A stretch of DNA of 61,104 bases from a virus, in the IMG/VR virus record IMGVR_UViG_3300030118_005363, positions 1 to 61,104 of that record, one strand, 5' to 3'. Positions 1,081 through 59,038 of this stretch are shown here, piece after piece. Below the pieces are notes generated by a model. It made no database searches, had not been told where the DNA came from, and was given only the letters and a program-made list of their open reading frames with translations. The translations under genes and the position numbers were made by a program. Each line of letters opens with the position of its first letter. Positions within the stretch are counted from its first letter, which is position 1.

Positions 1081-1733
1081 TACAACCACCCATCTTCATT
1101 CTGCTGTTTTTTCTTGACACCTTTCGGGAGAGAATCTTTGTTGGTTTTGCGCAGTTTATTAGCAACGACTTCATCTTGTCTAACTATTGTTTCCCAATGT
1201 AAGTCATTGTTGCGCACACCAAAAGGTCTTGGGGTTTCGTCACTCTTTTTCTTCTTTGGGTATGACATTCTGCGTATTGGTTTGTGCGCATACGCAATCA
1301 TAGCATGTTGATAATCTTCGGGAACATTAGTGAAAGCCTTAGCCAGTGTGCGCCAAAGCGATATGTCTTTGTTGTTCTCTTTGAGGAAGGAAAGCATCAA
1401 CGGGATAGGCACTTTGGAACACTCGCCAAACGCTTTATTTCTATCACGCCATCTTAGTGTTGCGTCTATGTTCCGAGCATAGTCTTGTTTTTTGAATATA
1501 CCGTCATAAATAACTGCGTCGTTTTTCTTGATGTTTGGGGGATTCTCGCAAACAAAGACCATTCTGTGCGCAATGTAAGGCAACCAAGCAAGACATTCTT
1601 TTGCTTTAGGATTTCTTTCATGAACAATGACTGTCAAATCCTTTACTTGAGGGTTGCAAGAAACATAACCGCCCTCGACAAAATTGCCTTCACGGTATTT
1701 TTGCGCATCATGCGTGAAAATGAGAACGCCCAT
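1080..1733 (-). CDS. Conserved early protein, possibly clamp-loader related (217 aa)
   Basis: No confident family. The N-terminal half alternates strands and helices (LTVIVHERNPKAKECL, then MVFVCENPP). The C-terminal half is helical (VPIPLMLSFLKENNK, ISLWRTLAKAF). The arrangement loosely recalls delta-type clamp-loader partners, but no Walker motif or other diagnostic residue is present. The C-terminal 50 residues are lysine-rich. Start ATG 1733 is preceded by AGGTG and lies within the end of the upstream gene. A structure prediction would be needed to move beyond hypothetical. Confidence 0.7.
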   Translation of the reverse strand: MGVLIFTHDAQKYREGNFVEGGYVSCNPQVKDLTVIVHERNPKAKECLAWLPYIAHRMVFVCENPPNIKKNDAVIYDGIFKKQDYARNIDATLRWRDRNKAFGECSKVPIPLMLSFLKENNKDISLWRTLAKAFTNVPEDYQHAMIAYAHKPIRRMSYPKKKKSDETPRPFGVRNNDLHWETIVRQDEVVANKLRKTNKDSLPKGVKKKQQNEDGWL

Positions 1734-1971
1734 CCCAAACACCTGCTCGTCTATATTCTTTCACGCCGTTTTTTTTGCGCCCTTCAAGTGCGCCTTTGCT
1801 TTCAAGAATACGCAGGGCTTTTGCAACCGCATACACATTCATGTGCATGTGTGCTTGAGGCAACGCTCTAATTGCTCTTGGCAACAAGGCATCTGCGCTA
1901 AACCATTTATCGGTCTGTTCCCAATCTCCGATTGCTCGCTCAACCGCATGCTTTCTGTATGACTTGCTCAT
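1708..1971 (-). CDS. Winged-helix-like DNA-binding protein (87 aa)
   Basis: The region from about residue 25 (SADALLPRAIRALPQ) to residue 75 (EGRKKNGVKEYRR) has the helix-helix-wing pattern of a small winged helix, with a basic C-terminal wing. It is likely an early regulator, but the target is unknown. Its ATG overlaps the stop of the preceding 46-residue gene as ATGA, and its own end overlaps the next gene. Confidence 0.6.
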   Translation of the reverse strand: MSKSYRKHAVERAIGDWEQTDKWFSADALLPRAIRALPQAHMHMNVYAVAKALRILESKGALEGRKKNGVKEYRRAGVWDGRSHFHA

Positions 1972-2988: not shown

Positions 2989-3157
2989 CTGTAATCACCC
3001 TCATGTAACCACAATATACACGCTTGCCATCACGATAAATTCTATGTGAGTTGTATAAGACATTTGCAGTGTAGCCGCAAGTGTTGCATCTGCGCATTTG
3101 TCTTGATTTCATAGCGTAGCCGTAACCGCCCCTGTCTTTACCGTATGAAACACCCAT
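2981..3157 (-). CDS. Basic zinc-knuckle microprotein (58 aa)
   Basis: Found by direct translation. A glycine/tyrosine-rich N-terminus (YGKDRGGYGYA) is followed by a basic stretch RQMRRCNTCGYTANV and a later lone YCGY cysteine, giving at least three cysteines of a zinc knuckle. The ATG overlaps the TGA of the upstream gene (TGATG), and a GGGAGG lies 12 nt before it. A nucleic-acid-binding role is likely from charge, but unproven. Confidence 0.7.
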   Translation of the reverse strand: MGVSYGKDRGGYGYAMKSRQMRRCNTCGYTANVLYNSHRIYRDGKRVYCGYMRVITDE

Positions 3158-3783
3158 CAGTCAATTACCTCCCATTCAGTATCTTGAACATGAGTAGGGG
3201 ATTTCATTGCGCCGATGCGCATTTCGATTTGATTCAGCAATTTAGGTTCATTGCGCAAAGTATCAACGAGAATACCCATTACTCCATTTACTTGCTGATG
3301 CGCAAGTAGCATTTGGGAATCAACCCCTATTTCTTTCTTCAATGTGCCTATGAGTTTTATGTTAGTATTAGCCTGCGCAACAAGACGGGTAGCAGTGGAT
3401 AACCATTCAGCATCTATCCCATCCCTTGACTTCTGCGCTTCCCATTCATCGAGCCAGTTTGTTATTCTTGAAAACACATCTTCCGCCATATCAAGAGTAG
3501 TAATCGCTTCACTGCGAGCCTTTTCAACAGTTTCGGCTTCTTCGGGGTCATAGTCCATGTGCGCAGTCATGTGTTCTTCAACAATGCCTGCTTCCCAGTT
3601 ATTCTTTGCTTCAAGATAAGCGGTAGTGATTGCGCCATTAAAAATTTGTATCTCCCAATCCCGCCTATCCTTATGTGCGCATAGAGGGCATTCGGGTGAT
3701 TCAAGAACCCACTTCAAAGCCTCTATAATCATCGGGTCATCTTCATGCGCAAGTCTTTGTTCAATCAACCATTTACTTTTCAT
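3157..3783 (-). CDS. Zinc-motif helical protein, candidate terminase small subunit (208 aa)
   Basis: The N-terminal part has CPLCAHKDRRDWEIQIFNG followed by an EEHMTAHMDY segment: a C-x2-C...H-x3-H arrangement followed by long helices. The region AEWLSTATRLVAQANTNIKL is a classic amphipathic helix. This architecture (short Zn motif, recognition helix, helical oligomerisation segment) is seen in phage small terminase and related DNA-recognition proteins. The gene lies far from the large terminase at 20.0-21.5 kb, so the assignment is tentative. The ATG at 3783 follows AAGGTG by 7 nt. Confidence 0.6.
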   Translation of the reverse strand: MKSKWLIEQRLAHEDDPMIIEALKWVLESPECPLCAHKDRRDWEIQIFNGAITTAYLEAKNNWEAGIVEEHMTAHMDYDPEEAETVEKARSEAITTLDMAEDVFSRITNWLDEWEAQKSRDGIDAEWLSTATRLVAQANTNIKLIGTLKKEIGVDSQMLLAHQQVNGVMGILVDTLRNEPKLLNQIEMRIGAMKSPTHVQDTEWEVID

Positions 3784-4068: not shown

Positions 4069-4350
4069 TCAAATTTCCACTTCCCTGTTCGCTAAATCCC
4101 AAACCCCGTCGCCTAAATGTTTGAATCTTTTTTCTGTGTCGTTTATCAGCGCAAAATACATTGCGGTGTGCATAGGTATTCCGCAACGCAGTTTTGTTCC
4201 TTTCTTTGTGGTTGCGCCACAAATCAAATCCTTCTTATGTAGTGCGCCTCTTTCTTTGAGCAAACGCTCGCAAGAATCGAGAAACGCTTTGTATTTTGTA
4301 ACATTGCCCGTTCTGCTACTTCTATAATGAACAACCTTATTCTTTTTCAT
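4069..4350 (-). CDS. Basic hypothetical protein (93 aa)
   Basis: Begins MKKNKVVHYRSSRTGNVTKY. It contains KKDLICGATTKKGTKLRCGIPM, a pair of cysteines 14 residues apart next to basic residues. The ATG at 4350 overlaps the end of the MCM-like ATPase gene by 14 nt. The conserved-looking HTAMYFALIND segment is helical. No family recognised. Confidence 0.55.
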   Translation of the reverse strand: MKKNKVVHYRSSRTGNVTKYKAFLDSCERLLKERGALHKKDLICGATTKKGTKLRCGIPMHTAMYFALINDTEKRFKHLGDGVWDLANREVEI

Positions 4351-5641
4351 GCGCCATAACCTCGTCAAACCCAAATCGGCACATAACACCTTTGCGCCCT
4401 CGCCCTGTTTTCTTAGGGGTATATTCTTTGAACCACGCCTGCCCCAACAAGTATTCCTCTATCCATCGCTTTGCGCTTTGGTAATCGTTGTTGGTAATCA
4501 AGCGAGCAATGTCTTTGAGCAGAACAGAACGGGGAACATCTTTGTTCCAAAATGTAGTCCGAATCAAGCGTATATCTTCATCGAGAACGGTTCTGCGCAT
4601 CTTCAAAGAAGATTCAAGAATTTCACGCAGTCTGTCGTCTAACTCGACCATAAGTAATTCTTTGTCCTCCCACTCTCCTTTCATCATTGTGTAACCGATT
4701 GCCAGTCTGCGAAATAAATCCGATTCAAAACTGCGCACTGTTTCTTGTAAGACCCACTTCTCAAAATCTTCACCAAACACAACCCCTTGTGGTTTTTTAT
4801 CCATGACCTTTTTCTGTCTTTCAATGAACCATTTGCGCAATTCTATCGAGTCTTGGATTAACTGCCTTCTTTTTGCAGGCTCAATACTTGCCTGCTTGTT
4901 CTGCGCATGCTTGTATAACATCTCCTTTTCGGGAGTCATTTCTATGTCTATGATAAAGAACCTACGGTCAAGACCGGACTCTAATTCAAACCGAGCAGGT
5001 TGTGTTCCCGCCCACATTGTCATGCGTGTGTTGTATTTCACCCAACCACTGCGCATTGATTTGTTCACCCTTCCGCTATCAAGCGATGTAAGCAATTGGT
5101 TCTTCATATCAACGCTATGGTCTTTGCGTGAAGCATCGGACATACTGCTAAATTCTTCAAAGCAAACAAATCCACCGCACATATACCGAGCAACGGGATT
5201 ACCCATGATTTCACCTTCTTCATTCACCGACCCAAACATACCTGCCTCCGTGATACTGTTTGCGCCGAACATGGTTCTGAAACCTGTTCCTTTCAAGGCA
5301 TCGTTGTTCCAAAGTAACCCAGTGTTTTCTGCGCAGAATAAATCAAGCAATACATTCTTCCCCGAACCTTTCTGTCCTCTCACTAAAATATTAATGCGTG
5401 TATCTGCAAGACGGGTAGCGGGTGTGTAAATAGGATAATCTGTGTGGCGCAAAGGACAAGGCTCAATCGTAAAAGCACCCTCCGAAGCAGTCAATGGGTC
5501 GAAATCGCACATACTGCATTTATTTACGGCATTGAATAGGTGTGCGCCTATACTGCACAAAAAGATAGGAACTTTGTCTTGCACATCAACCAAATAATTG
5601 TCATCGCAAAACTTCTGAACCCTATCAAATATATCCTTCAC
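4337..5641 (-). CDS. MCM-like AAA+ ATPase, candidate replicative helicase (434 aa)
   Basis: A cysteine-bearing N-terminal region (CSMC...PCPLRH, residues about 43-66) precedes an AAA+ core: Walker A VRGQKGSGKNVLL (about 87-99), Walker B FVCFEEFSSM (about 155-165), sensor 1 in MTMWAGTQP, and an arginine-finger-like GLDRRFF. The order and the EEF form of Walker B resemble MCM-family AAA+ cores. The C-terminal 100 residues look like a winged helix. With no DnaB or superfamily-3 helicase in the window, this is the best candidate to unwind viral DNA. It is shorter than cellular MCM (600 or more residues). GTG start overlaps the upstream stop (TAGTG) behind GGAGAGG. Confidence 0.72.
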   Translation of the reverse strand: MKDIFDRVQKFCDDNYLVDVQDKVPIFLCSIGAHLFNAVNKCSMCDFDPLTASEGAFTIEPCPLRHTDYPIYTPATRLADTRINILVRGQKGSGKNVLLDLFCAENTGLLWNNDALKGTGFRTMFGANSITEAGMFGSVNEEGEIMGNPVARYMCGGFVCFEEFSSMSDASRKDHSVDMKNQLLTSLDSGRVNKSMRSGWVKYNTRMTMWAGTQPARFELESGLDRRFFIIDIEMTPEKEMLYKHAQNKQASIEPAKRRQLIQDSIELRKWFIERQKKVMDKKPQGVVFGEDFEKWVLQETVRSFESDLFRRLAIGYTMMKGEWEDKELLMVELDDRLREILESSLKMRRTVLDEDIRLIRTTFWNKDVPRSVLLKDIARLITNNDYQSAKRWIEEYLLGQAWFKEYTPKKTGRGRKGVMCRFGFDEVMAHEKE

Positions 5642-16275: not shown

Positions 16276-18288
16276 TCAGACTGCACCCCACATATTTTCA
16301 TCAGTGAAGTCAAGTTCAATTTCTTCGCCGTAACCCATTTTCATTGCGTTTTCTTCGCCCCATTGAACGCACAAATTGCGCAAAGCCCAATCCTCACTTG
16401 CACCGGCGGCGACATGCTCGGCGGCTGATGCAATGGCACGGTATGAAATTACAACCCTTGAAATTTCATGCTCATTTGCAAGTCTGCGCACTTCTCTGAA
16501 TTTATCAGCAAAGGCAACAGAACCGGCGACGGCGTTTTCAATGGCCTTTGAATAATCAATCTTCACAAATTGACCGGCGAACCTGTCAAGCGTTGCAGAG
16601 TCTTGAGTATTGGCGGCGTTATACTTGGGGTCTGAACCTTGACCCATTGTATTTGCAGTGCCGACAAATACGGTTGAAGAATGGCGCAGAATTTTTTCGC
16701 CTTTCGGAGTATAGAAAAATCCGTTTGCAAGGACTGCATTCAATGCGCTCAATGTTGAAGGGTGTAGTCTGTCAATTTCATCAAGAACAATGAGGCCACC
16801 GTTCTCAAACACCGGTGCAATTGCGCCTTTGATGTAATCCCATTCGCCTGCCGGTCTGCCCGAACCATCATCAAAGAAGCGAGGCGATTCACGACCAATC
16901 AATTCTTGACTCTGCAAATCTTTGTTGCATGATAATATGAACATATTTTTCGCTTCGCTTGGCTTCTTCAATCCATGTGATTTCCAATAGCCTGCGCCGA
17001 TTAGAGCATTGAATAATTGCTCACAAATGCGAGTTTTACCCGTTCCGGCATCGCCATGTAGGTATAGATTATTCATTGCACCACTGCGCACTATTCGCCA
17101 CATCAATTCAGACATTTTCTCATGAACAATACCCTTGATTTTCAAGGCCGGTTTTGAACCGGATTTGACATGAAGAATTGTAGGTTTTCCGATTGAATTT
17201 AGTTTCTCATCTATGCCCTTCTTGATGGCTTCAAATTGCGCAGAGTGTGCAGACATTTGTTCACCGATAACTTGAGCGAGTGCCTCACTGTTCAAATTCC
17301 ACTGTTCAAGTGAAACCTTTGTAGCAATTTGGCGCACTAAATCCTCATCAACGCCGCCGCCGACAATATCTCTAATCGCTTTCAGTGCGTCTTTTTCTTG
17401 CACTTTTGGCGCAGTCGGCTCAAGGTCAATCGAGATTTTCTTTGTCATTGTTGCAACAGGTGAAACAGGCTCGACAGGTTGCGTTTTTGGTGGCGTTGGT
17501 ATCGGCTCTGAACCTATGTATTCAGTTTTCATAATTTCAGACTCGGCGCAGGATTGACAAACCGGCTTATTCTGTTTGCCATAAAGAGGCAACATAACCA
17601 TATATTCGCCTTTGTATATCTCAATATGGCATGATTTGCAGGTTTTTGGTGCAGGTTTGGAGTATTTTCGCACCGTAAAACCTGCGTCTTTGTAGGCTTG
17701 CAAGCCTGTTGGGGTTGGTTGCCTCTTAGCCATCAAACTCATTCCAAATAGGCCACTGTTCAACAATTTAGGCATGAAAATCCATGCAATCAAGGCGGAT
17801 AATCCCACAATCGCAAGTGTAAACGCTATACTGCGTGCCACTTCAACGGTTTCATTGTTGGGTTTTCCAGACATTTGAAGAAGTCCCTCATCAATGTTGC
17901 AATCGGCGCATAATCCATTACTGAAATGTGGCGCAGTGTTGCATTCAGACTCTTGACAAATCGGGCAAATGCTCAATTCATCATCAAGATATAGCGGCGC
18001 AGTGTCCTTTTTACCCTTGAATAATAGGGTTCTTAGAATTGCACCTTTGAGGTTTTTACGCCTTGAGGCTAATTCTAAACGGTGGACTGCACGCTTAAAC
18101 GCATGTCGTGAAACATGGTTCATTGATTGAGGCATGAGCCTCTTATCTTGCTCGCAGTGTGTCATTTGTTCGGTCATTGAGTCAGCGTCAGACTCCTTGC
18201 TTATGGTTTCCAAATCCATTGAGGCAGGTGCTAAAAGGCACACTGCGACAACGAACAACATTTTTGTTATGTTTGTTTGTGTTAGCAT
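16276..18288 (-). CDS. Membrane-anchored MoxR-type AAA+ ATPase with zinc ribbons (670 aa)
   Basis: Order of parts: a signal-like N-terminus (MLTQTNITKMLFVVAVCLLA), a zinc ribbon CPICQESEC...GLCADC (about residues 105-130), a membrane helix IAFTLAIVGLSALIAWIF (about 155-172), a second ribbon CKSCHIEI...PVCQSC (about 215-245), a variable linker, then an AAA_5/MoxR core. The core has Walker A LHGDAGTGKTRI (near residue 410), Walker B GLIVLDEID (near 490), sensor VFVGTANT, and an ATLDRFAG arginine finger. The frame is open to 18567; ATG 18288 is chosen because GGTGAG precedes it and the TATA promoter lies 32-43 nt upstream. MoxR ATPases normally lack membrane anchors, so this form is unusual. It works with the VWA-like protein downstream. 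Confidence 0.75.
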   Translation of the reverse strand: MLTQTNITKMLFVVAVCLLAPASMDLETISKESDADSMTEQMTHCEQDKRLMPQSMNHVSRHAFKRAVHRLELASRRKNLKGAILRTLLFKGKKDTAPLYLDDELSICPICQESECNTAPHFSNGLCADCNIDEGLLQMSGKPNNETVEVARSIAFTLAIVGLSALIAWIFMPKLLNSGLFGMSLMAKRQPTPTGLQAYKDAGFTVRKYSKPAPKTCKSCHIEIYKGEYMVMLPLYGKQNKPVCQSCAESEIMKTEYIGSEPIPTPPKTQPVEPVSPVATMTKKISIDLEPTAPKVQEKDALKAIRDIVGGGVDEDLVRQIATKVSLEQWNLNSEALAQVIGEQMSAHSAQFEAIKKGIDEKLNSIGKPTILHVKSGSKPALKIKGIVHEKMSELMWRIVRSGAMNNLYLHGDAGTGKTRICEQLFNALIGAGYWKSHGLKKPSEAKNMFILSCNKDLQSQELIGRESPRFFDDGSGRPAGEWDYIKGAIAPVFENGGLIVLDEIDRLHPSTLSALNAVLANGFFYTPKGEKILRHSSTVFVGTANTMGQGSDPKYNAANTQDSATLDRFAGQFVKIDYSKAIENAVAGSVAFADKFREVRRLANEHEISRVVISYRAIASAAEHVAAGASEDWALRNLCVQWGEENAMKMGYGEEIELDFTDENMWGAV

Positions 18289-18319
18289 TTTGCTCACCGA
18301 TTGATTAAACATAGGTTCA

Positions 18320-18331
18320 GGATATAAACCC
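18320..18331 (-). promoter_or_regulatory. TATA promoter, GGGTTTATA type, of the MoxR-VWA unit
   Basis: Minus strand GGGTTTATATCC, 32-43 nt before the ATG at 18288. It lies directly beside the repeat array. Confidence 0.7.
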
Positions 18332-18350
18332 CCAACATCAGACCGAAAAA

Positions 18351-19879
18351 CCGTTGCACTGAAAGCCAATAGGCTCGCAGTGTGCCTCGATGCAAGAAGG
18401 GGTTTGATTGATATATTATATCTTGACGCACCACGGTTTTGATTTTTGCTCGGCGCATTTTCAAAACAGGCTCGCAGTCCATCGTTTTTGATGCAGTGCA
18501 ACGATTTCAAAAGGTGTCGGCTCAAAGTCGGCGCAGACCGAAAATTAATAGCGGCGCAGTCTATCATTCAGAAATTGCGCAGGCTTTCAGTATAACGGTT
18601 TTGTCAAACAGCCTTGCAGTCTATCGTTTAGACTAAGGCGCAGATTTTGAACAGGCTTTCAGTATAGCGTTTTTCTCTTATAGATTCTGAAAATGGCCGG
18701 ACTCAAGGCCGGACAGAAAAACGGCCAAAACAGGCTTTCAGTCCATCATTTAGAGTCAAAGGCGCAGAATTATTAATCGGCTCGCAGTCTATCGTTTAGC
18801 CATTTTTGTGATTTCTGAAAATCCTAAACGGCGCACTGCAAAGGTGTAGTTTCTGCACCGATGGCAAAATAGCGGCGCAGTCTATCGTTTAGGTCTTTTC
18901 ATCCGATTTCAAGACCATTTGCCAAAGTCCGAAAACCGGAAATTTACGGCGCAGGCTTTCAGTCCATCGTTTAGAATCCGTAAAAGGGTCACTGCTCTAC
19001 ACTGCAACCATTGGTTAAGTAGCGGCGATGAGCCAAAATGAGGGCAGGCTCGCAGTATATCGTTTATGTCCGGTAAATGTCAAGCCGGTAGGGGTCATCG
19101 GTCACGCAGTCCATCGAATACGGCGCAGTGCATCGAATAGGGTTTTGAGCAAAAGGCTCGGCGGCTTCGCAGTCCATCGTTCAGAGGGCTTTTTTTCAAC
19201 CCATTTACCGGAAACCGGAAACTCAAACAGAAAACGCAGTCCATCGGTTTTGCTCGGAAATTTTCAGAACGGCGCAAATCAATGATGCAACAAGGCGAGA
19301 TATGAACACTGCGAGCCTGTTTTTCGGCGCAAAAATCCATCAGACAAAATCAAAACCGTTGCACTGAAAAAGTGAGAATTGGTTCATTTTGCTCATTTTG
19401 CTCAATTTCCATAAATGCGCAGTTTGAAACCGTATTCCGGTAAATAGGGCATTGATATTTGAAATAATATGTTCACAATCAAGAACGGTAGGCTCGCAGT
19501 CTATCGGTTTGAGGTCACTGGAAACCTGTTGCTCAATGTCTGATAATTTGAAAAATGGCTTGCAGTATAACGGTTATGGGGTCGGTAGGCTCGCAGTCAA
19601 GCGTTTAGACAATCGGCGCAAAAACTCCAACCATAACAAATATCAACAAATTTCCGTCACAAAATGATTCTATGTTAATCGGTTAAGGTTGCCCTAAATT
19701 TTTTATTTTGCGCAGAATAGTGGGGGGATAGGCTCGCAGTGCCACATTCAGAAAAAAAATATGGCCGATTTTTTAGTGCCATTATGCTCAAATTAATAGT
19801 AAATCGTTAATTGTTATTAAATGCGCATTCAGAAATCATTCGGCGCAGACCAAAACAGGCTTGCAGTGCAACGGTTTTG
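18351..19879 (+). repeat. Array of about 20 degenerate 20-22 bp repeats, core GGCTCGCAGTCTATCGTTTA
   Basis: Forward copies begin near 18371, 18469, 18551, 18582, 18611, 18653, 18733, 18779, 18872, 18954, 19047, 19102, 19121, 19162, 19232, 19491, 19558, 19588, 19731 and 19858. Reverse copies lie at 18351-18367, 19305-19319 and 19351-19371. Spacing is irregular (19 to about 140 bp). The left half GGCT(C/T)(G/T)CAGT and the right half CG(T/G)TTTAG are most constant; the four bases between vary (CTAT, CCAT, ATAA, GCAA). Pair 18351/18371 is head to head. Irregular spacing and one dominant orientation argue for protein-binding sites rather than CRISPR. Confidence 0.85.
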
Positions 19880-19990
19880 AAAAATCAAACGGTCAAAAAA
19901 TAGTGCGCAATAATGCGCCAAAAACTGCGCATACTGGCGGCGGCACACACGCCAACCACCGCAAAAAATTATCCGTATTTTTTTCAAATT

Positions 19991-20004
19991 GGGCTTATAA
20001 ACCT
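19991..20004 (-). promoter_or_regulatory. Candidate TATA promoter directed into the repeat array
   Basis: Minus strand AGGTTTATAAGCCC resembles the GGGTTTATA promoters but no gene follows it for 1.7 kb. It lies immediately after the terminator-like end of the terminase gene, so transcription from here would yield an RNA crossing the array. Confidence 0.35.
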
Positions 20005-20026
20005 AAAAAAACGGCACAAACCGTTT
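20003..20026 (-). terminator. Hairpin plus T-tract at the end of the terminase gene
   Basis: On the minus strand AAACGG (20026-20021) pairs with CCGTTT (20014-20009) across a 6 nt loop and is followed by seven consecutive T (20010-20004). It overlaps the final codons of the terminase gene. T-tracts terminate archaeal transcription; a hairpin is not required there but is present. Confidence 0.5.
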
Positions 20027-21496
20027 ATTTCTTGTAATTCTTTTAGATTTTTTACCCGCAGACCACTTTGACGCATCTAATGACCCTCCAACGACTGCTA
20101 AACCAGTGTTTTGAGCCGATTTTACTTGGTCTATGGCATGTGCAAGTGCCATTACAGTGTCATTATGCTTGCCTTTGTCTGTTATGTCGCCGTTTTTCCA
20201 TACATGCGACTCTAACTCGTCAAGTAGTATGCTCATAACACGCCTTGTTTCATCGTTGCCGTATGGTATAATGACTTTTTCTTGTTCAAACCACACTCTA
20301 AGACGATTTAACAATCCTTGCTTCAAAGTTTTGTTAGATACCTTGCTCATTTGCAAATTTAGAGTAAGACCCTTTTGGTTGATTAGTGATTGATACAAAG
20401 ATTGGAAACCTGCGCTTTCAAATGCAAATACTGGGTGCTTGTATGCGTCATCAAAGTCTTTAATTACTTTAATTTGTTTAGCAGGCGGGAAATCATTGCG
20501 TCGCCACATATTTACAATATGAACATTGCCGTCTTTGTCTTGCCTAAGCACAATTGCAACAGTATAGTCTTGTCCGATACCATGTGAAGGGTCAAATCCA
20601 ACAATGTAATCGCCGTCATGTAGTTTTTGTTTTTGCAATATTCTATCCATGTCAAGATTTTTGCGAGTAAGTGTTTGTGGAAATACTGCGCTATCATCAT
20701 CAACAACCATACAAAGATACTCTTGCGCAAATGCTAACTCACCAATAGCCTCTCTTTGTTCAAGTAAAAACTCAAGAGGGCGTTCATCAGCCCAAAGACA
20801 AACAGGTTTTACATTGTCGGGGTCATTGCGCCATTCATCATAATTAACAATTGCACCTTTCTGCCATGTTTCCCATGCGTCATTACCTAACATTTCAGTA
20901 TGGTAAAGGTCATTCATACTCATAGGTGTGCCAACACAAAACAAACTGGTCTTAGGTGATAGCATAGGTGTAAGTTTTTTTCTAAACCATTGCTGATATA
21001 CTTCATAGGACATATCATTTTGGTCGTCAATAATATCATCAAGAGCAATTGCGGCGGGGTGTTCACCACGAATACCCGAACCAACCGATGTAGCCTTAAT
21101 CCATGCCCCATTTGTCAAACGCAATTCAAATCTGTTGCCTTTTGTCAAATCAACCTTTTTAGATAATTCGGGGTGTCTTTTTAAATCTTGGCGTATTTCT
21201 TCTAAACGATTCATTGCAAGGTCTTTATTTGCAGAAAATAACCAAATAGTGAAAGGTTTGCCTCGCCACTTTTCAAAAAGTAGCATGTGTAATAACTTTA
21301 CACGAAGCGTTGTGGACTTAGAGTGGTCACGAGGCGCAATAATACAAACACGGTGAACTTGTTTTCCTTCATTGTTTCCATACAAGTCAAGCCATTCTTG
21401 AATATGGTTGCCCCATTTGTAACCTAACCATTCATAAAAATGGCGTATATCATAACGACTACGCTCAAGATGAAAGGTTGTCATTAAACGAACCAT
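20003..21496 (-). CDS. terL: Terminase large subunit (497 aa)
   Basis: The packaging motor ATPase-nuclease. The ATPase domain shows a Walker A variant APRDHSKSTT (residues 54-63) and Walker B AIALDDIIDD (near 150) followed by motif III-like LFCVGTP. The RNase H-type nuclease domain shows GFDPSHG (near 295), a central FAFESAG and a C-terminal HNDTVMALAHA. It acts at the portal to move DNA into the prohead and cut it. The frame is open to 21505, but ATG 21496 lies 8 nt after AGGAG. It is transcribed divergently from the portal gene, together with a small gene and a metallophosphoesterase. Confidence 0.93.
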   Translation of the reverse strand: MVRLMTTFHLERSRYDIRHFYEWLGYKWGNHIQEWLDLYGNNEGKQVHRVCIIAPRDHSKSTTLRVKLLHMLLFEKWRGKPFTIWLFSANKDLAMNRLEEIRQDLKRHPELSKKVDLTKGNRFELRLTNGAWIKATSVGSGIRGEHPAAIALDDIIDDQNDMSYEVYQQWFRKKLTPMLSPKTSLFCVGTPMSMNDLYHTEMLGNDAWETWQKGAIVNYDEWRNDPDNVKPVCLWADERPLEFLLEQREAIGELAFAQEYLCMVVDDDSAVFPQTLTRKNLDMDRILQKQKLHDGDYIVGFDPSHGIGQDYTVAIVLRQDKDGNVHIVNMWRRNDFPPAKQIKVIKDFDDAYKHPVFAFESAGFQSLYQSLINQKGLTLNLQMSKVSNKTLKQGLLNRLRVWFEQEKVIIPYGNDETRRVMSILLDELESHVWKNGDITDKGKHNDTVMALAHAIDQVKSAQNTGLAVVGGSLDASKWSAGKKSKRITRNKRFVPFF

Positions 21497-21683
21497 CGTC
21501 ACCACTCCTATGAAAAATCGGGAAGCCGCAATACTCGGCTAAAGCATAGGCTAATGACTCGACTTCATTTCTGTCAAGCATTATACCTACAACCATTTCT
21601 TCTGAAAATAAATTAATAGCAATATAATCTTCGCCCATGTCAGCGATACGCAATTGTCTATCGGGGCTAATCCATATAGGCAT
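21465..21683 (-). CDS. Hypothetical protein between phosphoesterase and terminase (72 aa)
   Basis: Small alpha/beta protein (MPIWISPDRQLRIADMGEDY, then VVGIMLDRNEVESLAYALAE). GGAAGGAATGCAG precedes the ATG at 21683. It overlaps both neighbours. No family recognised; linkage to the terminase suggests a packaging or head role, without proof. Confidence 0.55.
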   Translation of the reverse strand: MPIWISPDRQLRIADMGEDYIAINLFSEEMVVGIMLDRNEVESLAYALAEYCGFPIFHRSGDDGSFNDNLSS

Positions 21684-28272: not shown

Positions 28273-28300
28273 GATTAAAAAAATATAGGAGATGAATAAG

Positions 28301-29209
28301 ATGAACAATACATTAGAAGAAATACTAACAGTTGAAGCGGCGACAGGACAATTCGGACAGGCTGATGCAGTCCTTGAACAAACGCTAAGAGATTTTATTG
28401 AATTACAATCAACCACAATCGCAGTCGGAACACAAGTTGTTGGTGTCCGTTCAGTGCCATACCTTGAATTTACATGGTATTCCGGTGCAGAAGGAACATT
28501 TACCTATCCTCTTGCTGACAATGCAGTTACAGACCCAACAAAGGTTGGAACTGCATCTTACTCGGTTCACTTGAAGAAAGGACAAGGCCGATGTATCTTC
28601 CTTGACTCCACACTACTTCGTGGTGAAACCTTTGAGAACATGGATAGACAACAAATGGCTATTGTCCGAAACAGGGCATCAGTTATAGACAACCTAATTA
28701 TATCTGCTCTTATTGATGGTGCAGGTCAAACCGTAACAGTAAGCGGTGGTGCAGAATGGGATAGCGGAAGCGGCGATGCAGAAGCAAACATTCTTGATGC
28801 TATGGATAAAATCTTTACCAATGGCCGTGTGTCCGGTGACGAAGCAGTTGCTATTATCTTGCCAACCACTGCAAGAAAGACTTTGATGGCTACTACCCTT
28901 TACGGAAATGTCGTTGAATCACTTGCTGATAACTTGTCAAGAAAGATGAACATTACCTTCTATTACAGTCGTGATGCACTTCTTGAGGACACTGCTCTTG
29001 TCCTAATTCCGGGCGCAGAAACCGCCGAGTTTTTGCAATACAACGGTGATGGATTCCAAGAAACTGAATTGACTCGTATTCCGGGCGTTGGTTTTGACTG
29101 GATGCTAACTGGCTACATGGCTTGTGTTGTTCACGAACACCAAGATACCCAAGCGGCAGGCAGTGGAAAGAACGATAGAATCTGTAAGATTACAAACATT
29201 ACCGCTTGA
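28301..29209 (+). CDS. Major capsid protein, HK97-type (302 aa)
   Basis: Builds the icosahedral shell. The sequence has the expected length and order: an N-terminal helix, an E-loop region (VPYLEFTWYSGAEGTFTYPL), the spine helix with NRASVIDNLIISALIDGAG, an A-domain segment VAIILPTTARKTLMATTLYG, and a C-terminal strand set ending in VVHEHQDTQAAG. Two ATGs are possible; 28301 is 9 nt after GGAG, whereas 28292 touches it. Position after protease/scaffold and decoration genes supports the call. Confidence 0.85.
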   Translation: MNNTLEEILTVEAATGQFGQADAVLEQTLRDFIELQSTTIAVGTQVVGVRSVPYLEFTWYSGAEGTFTYPLADNAVTDPTKVGTASYSVHLKKGQGRCIFLDSTLLRGETFENMDRQQMAIVRNRASVIDNLIISALIDGAGQTVTVSGGAEWDSGSGDAEANILDAMDKIFTNGRVSGDEAVAIILPTTARKTLMATTLYGNVVESLADNLSRKMNITFYYSRDALLEDTALVLIPGAETAEFLQYNGDGFQETELTRIPGVGFDWMLTGYMACVVHEHQDTQAAGSGKNDRICKITNITA

Positions 29210-54595: not shown

Positions 54596-55046
54596 AGTCA
54601 AGCCTCCAAATATTATGATGTGCTATGTCGTTATAAACCCATTTATGCAGACAGTCTTTTACATCATCAAAGGACTTGACTTTCTTGTAGCCAAGAGAGG
54701 CAACAACGCTTTCAAGGCGAGTCATCTTGATATTTTCCAAAGGGTTTAGAATTGCTATTTTTGGAATAGGTAGTAAAGATTGATTTCTTTCACGCAACAA
54801 GTGCTTGTGTAGTCCTTTACTGCGCCATTCTTTGCGCACATAGGTATTACCAACAAACACGCAGTCGCCAATCACCAATGAGCCTGTGTATGCTATGGCT
54901 TGATTATCCTTCGATGTATCAATCAGAACCCAAAACTCCATGTCGTCATAGAAAGCGGGGTAGCCTTTTTCCGATGCTCTTTGCAACGGTGAACCCCATA
55001 GAACCTCAAGCGATTCGTGCTTATCTACAACAACAGTGTTAATCAT
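54567..55046 (-). CDS. GNAT-family acetyltransferase-like protein (159 aa)
   Basis: The pattern GSLVIGDCVFVGNTYVRKEW followed by RSKGLHKHLLRERNQ matches GNAT strands 4-5 and the acetyl-CoA pyrophosphate loop (R/QxxGxG/A region, here RSKGLH). The rest fits an alpha/beta fold. The substrate is unknown; protein, tRNA or base modification are all possible. ATG 55046 overlaps the upstream stop (ATGA); a longer frame exists to 55127. The end overlaps the polymerase start and contains its promoter. Confidence 0.65.
   Translation of the reverse strand: MINTVVVDKHESLEVLWGSPLQRASEKGYPAFYDDMEFWVLIDTSKDNQAIAYTGSLVIGDCVFVGNTYVRKEWRSKGLHKHLLRERNQSLLPIPKIAILNPLENIKMTRLESVVASLGYKKVKSFDDVKDCLHKWVYNDIAHHNIWRLDFDSGKSEEE
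54631..54640 (-). promoter_or_regulatory. TATA promoter, GGGTTTATA type, of the polymerase
   Basis: Minus strand GGGTTTATAA, 36-45 nt before the TTG at 54595, inside the acetyltransferase-like gene. Confidence 0.6.
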
Positions 55047-55351
55047 CTTTTGCGCCCACCAGTATTTCTTGTTTCTATACCGTGAGTCTTTAGCCATTTG
55101 AAGATAGTCATTGGTGAAACTGCGCATTGTTTTGCAATGTCAGCCATGCTTCTATCCTTCTTGACATATTCTTCAATGAGCCACGATTCATTGCGGTATG
55201 TCTTTTTAGAATCTAATTCGTGCGTTATGTGCGCCATGACATAATGCGGCTCTCCGCAATCAAGACACACGGACTTCTGCCCTTCGCCGTTCTCTATTTC
55301 TATATTCAGTATCGTTTCACATTCTGCGCATTTGTAATTTATCGTTATCAT
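55043..55351 (-). CDS. Zinc-ribbon plus helix-turn-helix protein (102 aa)
   Basis: N-terminal ribbon KCAECETILN...SVCLDCGEPHY (residues 8-35), then LIEEYVKKDRSMADIAKQCA-VSPMTIFKWLKTHG, a clear helix-turn-helix of the type seen in homing-endonuclease and resolvase-like DNA-binding tails, and a basic end (RNTGGRKR). A DNA-binding regulator is likely. Confidence 0.7.
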   Translation of the reverse strand: MITINYKCAECETILNIEIENGEGQKSVCLDCGEPHYVMAHITHELDSKKTYRNESWLIEEYVKKDRSMADIAKQCAVSPMTIFKWLKTHGIETRNTGGRKR

Positions 55352-56837: not shown

Positions 56838-57794
56838 TCAGCCCCAAGTCAAGAAGGGCAGGCCGTTCCAAACGACTTCGCCATCCTTGACTGACAGGAC
56901 TGTGTGCGTAGTGCCTAAATGTTCTTGGTTAAACCCTTTCATTTCTTCAATTGAGCATCGGATTTCCCATGCGCCGTCATCGAGGCTTGCGTCGGGCTTT
57001 ACACCTGCCGCAAGGTCGCCTTTCTTAGTGTAGCGAGTAAGCCATAACTGCTGACTGAAAAGGCGCATTGTTCCCTTTTCCCATTCCGGTTCTTCACCAA
57101 TCTTCATAAGACCCTTTTGACCGTTGCCAATATCTGCAAACTGCTTCTTGTCCTTCAAGTGGAAGGTGAAAAACACTGCATCAACAGGCAATTGGTGGCC
57201 TCTATTGGCAATATCACGGAACAATTGATTGCGAATACGCCATTCCGCTTGATTGAATTTGTCACCATCTTCGACATTTACAGGGTTTTTTGAACGGTTC
57301 ATTAGAACATCAGTCATAGCATGTTCACACCACTTCAAGAAACTGCTCATACCGTCAAAGATTACTGCGCCTACTTCGCCGTCACGACACTTCTGCGCAA
57401 CAATATTGATGAAATGCCCCATCTTGTCAATAAGCGCAGTATAGTTTGTTGAATTATCTTCGTTGAAGATTGTGTCATCTAACTCATCATAAAGAGGAAT
57501 GACAACAACATTCTCATCATCGGGATAGTTTGCCGCAACAGTTTGGGTTGCGCTGTTATCAACATCGAAGATGATTATTTGCTTGTCTGCGCCGACATGA
57601 TTTCTTGCAAGGTCAATCGCAAGACCAGTTTTTGCAGTATTCTCTTTACCGACCATAGCCATGCGGATAACTTGTGTGCGCTCACGCTTTCTGTTAAACA
57701 ATTCTGCGTAGTGCGCCCTCATATCACGCTTTTCGACTTTAGGTTCTTCTGCCTTATCTGCCTTCTTCTTTGCGTTAGCCCATGCGTTTGCCAT
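56838..57794 (-). CDS. RecA-fold ATPase, Sak4/RadA-like (318 aa)
   Basis: Core shows a P-loop MVGKENTAKTGLAID (near residues 46-60; AKT where GKT is usual), Walker B-like VGAVIFDGMSSFL (near 140), and a strand VDAVFFTFHLKDKKQ (near 205). This matches the compact RecA-like ATPases of phages (Sak4/AAA_24) that anneal or exchange strands, often with an SSB partner. The putative ssDNA-binding protein is encoded directly before it. The N-terminal 40 residues are basic. ATG 57794 with GGATGG upstream. Confidence 0.7.
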   Translation of the reverse strand: MANAWANAKKKADKAEEPKVEKRDMRAHYAELFNRKRERTQVIRMAMVGKENTAKTGLAIDLARNHVGADKQIIIFDVDNSATQTVAANYPDDENVVVIPLYDELDDTIFNEDNSTNYTALIDKMGHFINIVAQKCRDGEVGAVIFDGMSSFLKWCEHAMTDVLMNRSKNPVNVEDGDKFNQAEWRIRNQLFRDIANRGHQLPVDAVFFTFHLKDKKQFADIGNGQKGLMKIGEEPEWEKGTMRLFSQQLWLTRYTKKGDLAAGVKPDASLDDGAWEIRCSIEEMKGFNQEHLGTTHTVLSVKDGEVVWNGLPFLTWG

Positions 57795-57799
57795 CTGTT

Positions 57800-59038
57800 T
57801 CACCATCCTAAGTCTGCGCCTTCTTCTGCGCCGTTTTCATCTTCTGATACTTCAACGCCTTCAACGGAATCCATGACCCACCAACCGCTTACGCTCATAC
57901 GAGGCATGCCAGTCGTTTTGTCAATCCAACCGCCACCGACTGCGACAACCAATGAGCCGACTGCGAAATCAACCTTTGATTCTTCTTCTTTTGAAACCCA
58001 TAGGTCAATAGGCGCAATAGGAGAAGTAATGTCAAGGTCTGCAAGTGTTATGATGTAACCGCCTTGTTCTCTTGGGTCAATGTGCGCTACTTCAAGAGGT
58101 AGTGCGCAAAGAGCATCCCACTTTTCCTTGTCTGTCAGTGTTGAAAGCCAACCTTCAATGTCTGCAAGACCAGTCAAAGGTGTAGCACCGACTAAATCTT
58201 TGAGCAATCCGTCGCCGCCGTTGTCAAATGGCGCACTATCATACATACTGATTAGCGAATCATCTTGGCTGAATACGGAAACGCCGGACTTAGTGTAACC
58301 AACATCGCCAGTTTTACCGAGTTTGACCGGAAGGCGACCAGTGATAAATGTCGGGTGAATAGTCTTTGCATCTTCACCGTTGAAGCGAACCTTAATCGGT
58401 CTGATAGTCTTGTTGTCTGCACTGTTACCTAAGAATACGCAATCACGCATTGGTTCACTTTGCGCACGATAACGGCCATATCTGTAATTAGGGCTACCGG
58501 AAGGCCATGTCGGGGATGATTTGTCAGCAATCATAACGAATAAGCCTGTTCCATCTTCCAAATCCATCGCCGCTTTAGGCAGGGAATCAACATGCTTTTC
58601 TGCGCAAGCCACTTCAAAGGGTTGTTTAGCCTCAAGGGTTGGGTTGTGCGTATATGTGTAGCCGCCATTGACGGAATCGTGAACAAATAATGCGCAAACA
58701 CCTTGAGAAACCAGTGCTTTGCGAGCATCTTCGTCAAGCCCTCTTAACTGAACCTTCATGTTTTCATATTGGCGTGCCGCAATGTCTTTTGTGCGTGGAA
58801 CGCTAACAAACATGCCTTCAATGTTTTCGCAACCACTGCGAGCAAGTCTTGCAGTAATAACTCTCATTTCAGCCGCCGCCATTCTTAGGCACTTCATGTC
58901 AATATCCTCTTGGGATAGACCATTTGCTGATAGGTTTGCACTGTTAGCCGCAAGCACGCTTTCATGCTTTGCAAGCAGTGTTTCAACAGGGCATCCAACA
59001 TTCTTTGCTACTCTTTCGATAATCTTTTCATCAACCAT
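57800..59038 (-). CDS. Putative ssDNA-binding (RPA-like) protein (412 aa)
   Basis: The C-terminal region has a beta-rich, OB-fold-like stretch (VDFAVGSLVVAVGGGWIDKT, MSVSGWWVMDSVE) and ends with a strongly acidic tail closing on Trp (SEDENGAEEGADLGW), as many SSB proteins do to bind partners. The N-terminal part is helical. It is translated just before the RecA-like ATPase, and it follows the clamp-loader unit, as expected for replication. The assignment is inferred, because no diagnostic motif exists in this family. Own promoter at 59079-59089; CCGGAG precedes the ATG. Confidence 0.55.
   Translation of the reverse strand: MVDEKIIERVAKNVGCPVETLLAKHESVLAANSANLSANGLSQEDIDMKCLRMAAAEMRVITARLARSGCENIEGMFVSVPRTKDIAARQYENMKVQLRGLDEDARKALVSQGVCALFVHDSVNGGYTYTHNPTLEAKQPFEVACAEKHVDSLPKAAMDLEDGTGLFVMIADKSSPTWPSGSPNYRYGRYRAQSEPMRDCVFLGNSADNKTIRPIKVRFNGEDAKTIHPTFITGRLPVKLGKTGDVGYTKSGVSVFSQDDSLISMYDSAPFDNGGDGLLKDLVGATPLTGLADIEGWLSTLTDKEKWDALCALPLEVAHIDPREQGGYIITLADLDITSPIAPIDLWVSKEEESKVDFAVGSLVVAVGGGWIDKTTGMPRMSVSGWWVMDSVEGVEVSEDENGAEEGADLGW

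Follow-up and report, generated by a model that had tools for sequence, protein, structure and literature searches.

An array of 25-bp repeats beside the large terminase gene of a marine, probably archaeal virus: a candidate replication origin

The one large gene-free stretch of an uncultured marine, probably archaeal virus carries an array of 25-bp repeats that occurs at the same locus in about ten related genomes. Its sites bear a footprint of selection, and its location resembles that of an origin. We read it, with about even confidence, as an iteron-like array where an initiator binds the viral replication origin. Replication of these uncultured viruses of marine archaea has been given as 'unknown' or only 'predicted' (PMC13108676, PMC12999244), and no report of an origin was found in the literature. 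The 25-bp word, present in two virus groups and many genomes, provides an origin (or control) element that can be tested; it could serve as bait for the protein that binds it and perhaps as a signature linking viruses to hosts. No report of the motif was found in papers on these viruses, which, with partial coverage of the literature, is weak evidence of novelty.

The virus and the repeat array

The window, i.e. the whole stretch of 61,104 nucleotides analysed, represents a tailed virus of ~61 kb as a circular map that is nearly complete; G001, the closest relative, has a 123-bp exact end repeat, is collinear with the window and bridges its ends. Genes point leftward at 1-22.9 kb and 48.2-61.1 kb and rightward at 23.3-48.2 kb, and they encode PolB, an RFC-like AAA protein and an XPF-like nuclease. 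The genome looks lytic. The probable host order is Poseidoniales, because motif copies occur there, the replication genes are of archaeal type and the gene content is similar to that of magroviruses, for which CobS/CobT and an ERCC4 nuclease have been reported (PMC10160649). Searching 319 Poseidoniales genomes with the large terminase (TerL) gave a single match (28%). In a phage collection, TerL and PolB found nothing but matches below 60% identity, and the conserved structural-module protein at 28292-29209 had no match.

Downstream of the array, the ORF of the AAA_5 protein has 763 aa but shows homology only from residue 94 on, placing the true start at ~18288. Between this start and the TerL stop at 20003 no conserved ORF was found, in agreement with an earlier note on this DNA that had described a region of 1.7 kb with no gene. 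A protein-coding function of the gap was rejected in view of the missing ORF, and a known RNA in view of the missing Rfam family match. The AAA_5 protein is only 37% identical to its G001 counterpart, although array and TerL are close, and judging from the sequences its gene likely marks a recombination border beside the array.

The motif spans ~25 bp (ACAGGCTCGCAGT-NNNN-CGTTTAGg). About twenty degenerate repeats had been noted earlier, with motif discovery on related viral genomes proposed as a check, and a PWM fitted on seven related gaps indeed recovered the array: 20 forward and 5 reverse sites at 18291-20002, against a mean of 0.07 in dinucleotide-shuffled sequence (Table 1). The 14-letter pattern GCAGTNNANCGNTT, allowing at most one mismatch, has 28 matches in the window (4.2 expected; 0 of 100 shuffles reach 28), and 20 of them lie between 18349 and 19876. 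Weaker copies outside the gap (3499, 6820, 14669, 15206, 17818, 18074) fall in neighbouring genes and one other gap. Constant half sites around a variable centre, another early observation, were confirmed: the CAGT core is 97-99% and the CG 84-95% constant, and the 4 bp between them vary. Position 15 is A in 68 of 88 forward but 13 of 38 reverse sites (p 6e-6, related genomes pooled). The near-uniform orientation first described applies to the window (20:5 forward to reverse) but not to every relative (16:12 in G002), and the spacing, given as 19-140 bp, is irregular as stated but slightly wider in range (19-260 bp between adjacent forward copies). Same-strand neighbour spacings concentrate at 29-33 and 40-51 bp, and spacing favours helical turns (p 0.003 for the best period, ~11 bp, uncorrected for the number of periods tried). 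The array is not of the CRISPR type, which has identical repeats at constant spacing.

Table 1. Features of the array region and related genes (window coordinates)
Feature	Position	Strand	PWM score	Remark
Candidate array binder	1708..1971	-		87-aa winged-helix protein; correlative only
AAA_5 (CobS-like) protein	16276..18288	-		downstream of array; by homology
Gene-free gap with array	18289..20002			1.7 kb; TerL to AAA_5 gene
Motif site	18346..18370	-	22.6	
Motif site	18466..18490	+	35.0	best in window
Weak motif site	18485..18509	+		PWM
Motif site	18548..18572	+	22.5	
Motif site	18579..18603	+	25.5	
Motif site	18608..18632	+	33.1	
Motif site	18651..18675	+	25.9	
Motif site	18730..18754	+	28.4	
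Motif site	18776..18800	+	29.6	
Motif site	18823..18847	-	23.8	
Motif site	18869..18893	+	30.7	
Motif site	18951..18975	+	30.9	
Motif site	19044..19068	+	31.9	
Motif site	19098..19122	+	20.5	
Motif site	19117..19141	+	20.6	overlaps 19098..19122
Motif site	19161..19185	+	24.8	
Weak motif site	19228..19252	+		PWM
Motif half-site	19296..19320	-	16.7	
Motif site	19351..19375	-	17.5	
Motif site	19488..19512	+	31.2	
Motif site	19554..19578	+	25.1	
Motif site	19585..19609	+	27.6	
AGGGCAACC element	19687..19695	-		also in same gap of G006-G010, L012
Motif site	19728..19752	+	23.4	
AT-rich segment	19780..19840			77% AT; possible unwinding element
Motif site	19855..19879	+	31.3	last
~95-bp block beside TerL stop	19915..20010			conserved in all array genomes, partly in hairpin clade
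TerL, large terminase	20003..21505	-		Terminase_6C match below cut-off

Conservation and distribution of the motif

In the alignment of the window with G001, 20 of 20 well-scoring sites are in register, and identity is 87% within the motif versus 73% in the spacers. Substitutions pooled over five genome pairs affect G3, CAGT and CG at 0-5% and the flanks at 15-30%, a contrast somewhat inflated by choosing the sites by PWM score, which favours conserved positions. Such comparisons support the view that the array is cis-acting DNA under selection. The best conserved portion of the gap is the block of 95 bp beside the TerL stop.

The earlier note had held that relatives lacking the repeats at this locus would argue against a cis-acting array, and the outcome depends on distance. 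Where TerL is 78-97% identical the array is kept, occupying the main gene-free gap in every one of these genomes. In G008-G010 (TerL 72-74%) the motif is absent from the sequenced part and hairpins occupy the locus instead; farther off (TerL 51-61%) usually 1-4 strong copies occur, mostly non-coding and mostly in a large gap, with four in G346 (TerL 61%). Strong copies, two per genome, are also present in two viruses with larger genomes, 95 and 83 kb in size, whose PolB and TerL are ~25% identical. Of the strong copies outside the window, 16 of 20 are non-coding (2.5 expected). A virus represented by two loci (L103:2516-2600, L117:1165-1249), with no detectable homology to window proteins within the locus examined, has three tandem copies at exactly 30-bp steps.

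Among 84,980 cellular species genomes the motif scan gave nine matches, four of them in Poseidoniales and those all intergenic. Motif forms in 194 Poseidoniales genomes exceed the reversed control about fourfold, and 23 of the 39 distinct matches in this order are coding, many owing to shared codons. By our estimate, ~8 viral and ~4 cellular single matches of the degenerate pattern would arise by chance; since some single matches are thus expected, only multi-copy or TerL-family cases were relied on. In three Poseidoniales genomes (L132, L151, L157) the motif lies downstream of the same small gene, and in two (L084, L156) downstream of hutI.

Location, candidate proteins and the origin reading

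In complete or near-complete genomes the best copy usually occupies a large gap free of genes close to where transcription diverges; this is mostly on the PolB arm, with or without TerL there. The window clade has its array within a same-strand gene run, 3 kb from the transcription switch. GC skew around 18-20 kb, suggested earlier as a check, has its minimum not in the array but 4.5 kb away, at the switch. In array genomes, the minimum lies 2-5 kb from the array and the best copy ~29 kb from the skew maximum, the skew being confounded with gene direction. Across ten lineage representatives the best copy is nearer to the minimum than chance (mean 0.11 versus 0.25 of genome length, p ~0.0006), but as skew also follows gene direction this distance is support and not proof. 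Exceptions are G342, G343 and G344, whose best copy is removed from the minimum by 0.19-0.27 of the genome; that of the first two lies in coding sequence. The cleanest case is G011, because it was retrieved by TerL and not by the motif. Its strongest copy scores 27.7 and is the only one above 20 (0.025 copies scoring at least 18 expected genome-wide), and it lies inside a 1.7 kb gap 8 kb from TerL; this separation favours an origin over a packaging site. In five array genomes an AT peak (68-82%) occurs 190-240 bp from the TerL stop; it is not at that place in L059.

With iteron-type origins of plasmids and phages the array shares several direct, non-palindromic repeats of ~20-25 bp, above chance in a non-coding region, and repeats kept as sites across relatives (sites picked by PWM score), and perhaps an AT-rich stretch beside them. 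It differs in its irregular spacing, both orientations, more copies and no recognised initiator gene, and distant relatives have only one to four copies. Like the archaeal ORB arrays bound by Orc1/Cdc6 it consists of asymmetric boxes (~22 bp in ORB) that have a CAGT...CG core and lie in intergenic DNA of an origin, here a candidate one. However, as remarked earlier, the motif is not the ORB consensus (CTTCCAGTGGAAACGAAAGGGGT, PMC4153887; common motif TCCA[CG]T[TG]GAAA..., PMC4164010): the sequence is different and without a G-run, and at up to one mismatch the consensus has no match in the window gap and one isolated 1-mismatch match in that of G005. No Orc1/Cdc6 match was found among the window genes scanned. 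The host Orc1/Cdc6 as a binder through an orc1-adjacent ORB was rejected, as the motif is absent beside the orc1/cdc6 genes of the presumed host, although no ORB of the host itself turned up, either.

Of two viral regulators proposed earlier as binders, the protein at 55043-55351 is not an obvious regulator, its HTH segment matching HNH-endonuclease families, and that at 459-899 by eye resembles a winged helix with a zinc ribbon but has no significant Pfam or PHROG match. A candidate array binder, by correlation, is the small protein at 1708-1971. Its winged helix is confidently predicted (pLDDT 85), with weak fold matches to Fur, MecI, RTP and TubR. Those complete array genomes that were checked (G001, G003, G005, G015) have it, as does multi-copy G346, but not G011 or G014. 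Since it fails to explain single copies in genomes without it, the binder may also be a shared factor or one of the host. By eye, the protein at 4337-5641 appears AAA+ helicase-like (Walker A GxKGSGK, FEE, GLDRRF in the alignment consensus) and had no convincing profile match; profile searches with four replication-arm proteins gave no convincing solved relative.

In the proposed mechanism, each ~25-bp copy would bind one sequence-specific protein contacting GGCT.GCAGT and CGTTTA and ignoring the 4 bp between. The ~25 copies over 1.5 kb, which favour spacings of ~30-33 and ~43-44 bp, would gather many molecules into a single nucleoprotein structure. This structure may melt the AT-rich DNA next to it, near TerL, and bring in the viral AAA+ helicase-like protein, PolB and the RFC-like loader. 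Forks from the array would follow the direction of most genes until they met near 48 kb, and distant relatives may use the same mechanism with one to few copies. An origin is supported by the array far above chance, the selected sites, the gap position, the proximity to the skew minimum, the AT-rich peak at similar distance from TerL, the helical-turn spacing and the genes for PolB and the RFC-like and XPF-like proteins. The distance of the window's own skew minimum, the G342-G344 exceptions, the hairpin clade without the motif and the weaker intragenic copies weaken it. The initial proposal of a cis-acting locus of a viral DNA-binding protein, most likely the origin, is borne out as to a selected cis-acting array at a conserved locus with origin-like location; a viral binder and a replication start are what we infer.

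Alternative functions and repeat turnover

Tentatively, one factor, perhaps host-encoded, might read the same 25-bp word in several distant Poseidoniales virus groups and in the host. The word would then serve all these viruses as an origin or control element, with expansion to ~25 copies in one clade and an array of regularly spaced perfect hairpins taking its place in a sister clade. An unlikely alternative is a transcription-control region, in which a regulator from virus or host would use the motif as operator or enhancer to switch between early and late transcription, and arrays would act cooperatively near the divergent switch. Copies near this switch in many genomes, a copy just upstream of a TATA-like box in L055 and L061, and the sparse intergenic copies in Poseidoniales genomes would fit. 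However, the array of the window clade lies inside a same-strand gene run away from the switch, orientation and distance to starts vary, and 20 or more sites over 1.5 kb far exceed a usual promoter.

A packaging-initiation (pac) site read by the small terminase, for which the conserved CxxC protein at 3157-3783 (predicted structure poor, pLDDT 68) might be a candidate, is quite improbable. As in headful-packaging phages, the array adjoins a terminase gene in the window clade; the motif lies ~0.1-3.3 kb downstream of TerL in many relatives, and two copies stand close to the terminase genes of L115, whose terminase is a different one. This association is not constant, since G011, G341, G342 and G345 have the gap with the motif on the arm opposite TerL, ~8-11 kb away from it, which counts against packaging. 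Moreover, contigs end at unrelated places, G001 is circular, and a pac site does not need 20 or more copies.

We consider a partition, nucleoid-organising or protein-titrating (decoy) array very unlikely. Many same-oriented sites and a winged-helix candidate with TubR among its structural neighbours recall tubC/parS-type centromeres, but no motor NTPase (ParA/TubZ/ParM) or integrase was clear among the genes in Pfam and PHROG scans (the sole match in the motor-NTPase scan was a weak one to CbiA at 56838-57806, E 0.01), and there is no sign of lysogeny or a plasmid state; a decoy would need neither preserved site spacing nor a conserved single copy in distant relatives. A repeat RNA or a functionless by-product of a mutational or mobile-element process deserves hardly any credence, for although repeat words that differ between lineages at this locus point to fast turnover, the sites are in register and more conserved than the spacers, the substitution footprint disfavours it, both orientations occur and an Rfam match is missing.

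In the sister clade (G008-G010), 32-43 hairpins are spread over the gap that follows TerL and a portion of the adjoining gene, several of them of 13-14 bp with 3-4 nt loops, ~50 bp apart. Dense arrays of perfect hairpins downstream of TerL, partly coding, are located at L018:9470-11427, L019:5400-7221 and L020:8815-11081, with compensatory stem changes at homologous positions: between L018 and L019, 29 pairs have both partners changed yet remain paired (35 broken), and between L018 and L020, 60 (60 broken). Such a swap of repeat type at one locus would suit the study of cis-element turnover. Further repeat words occur in gaps of other relatives, too; those at L055:4020-4200, L061:2760-2940 and L068:5990-6250 have their own short words, e.g. 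AAAATGAAACCAAGTGT and TTAGTCGG, besides single motif copies.
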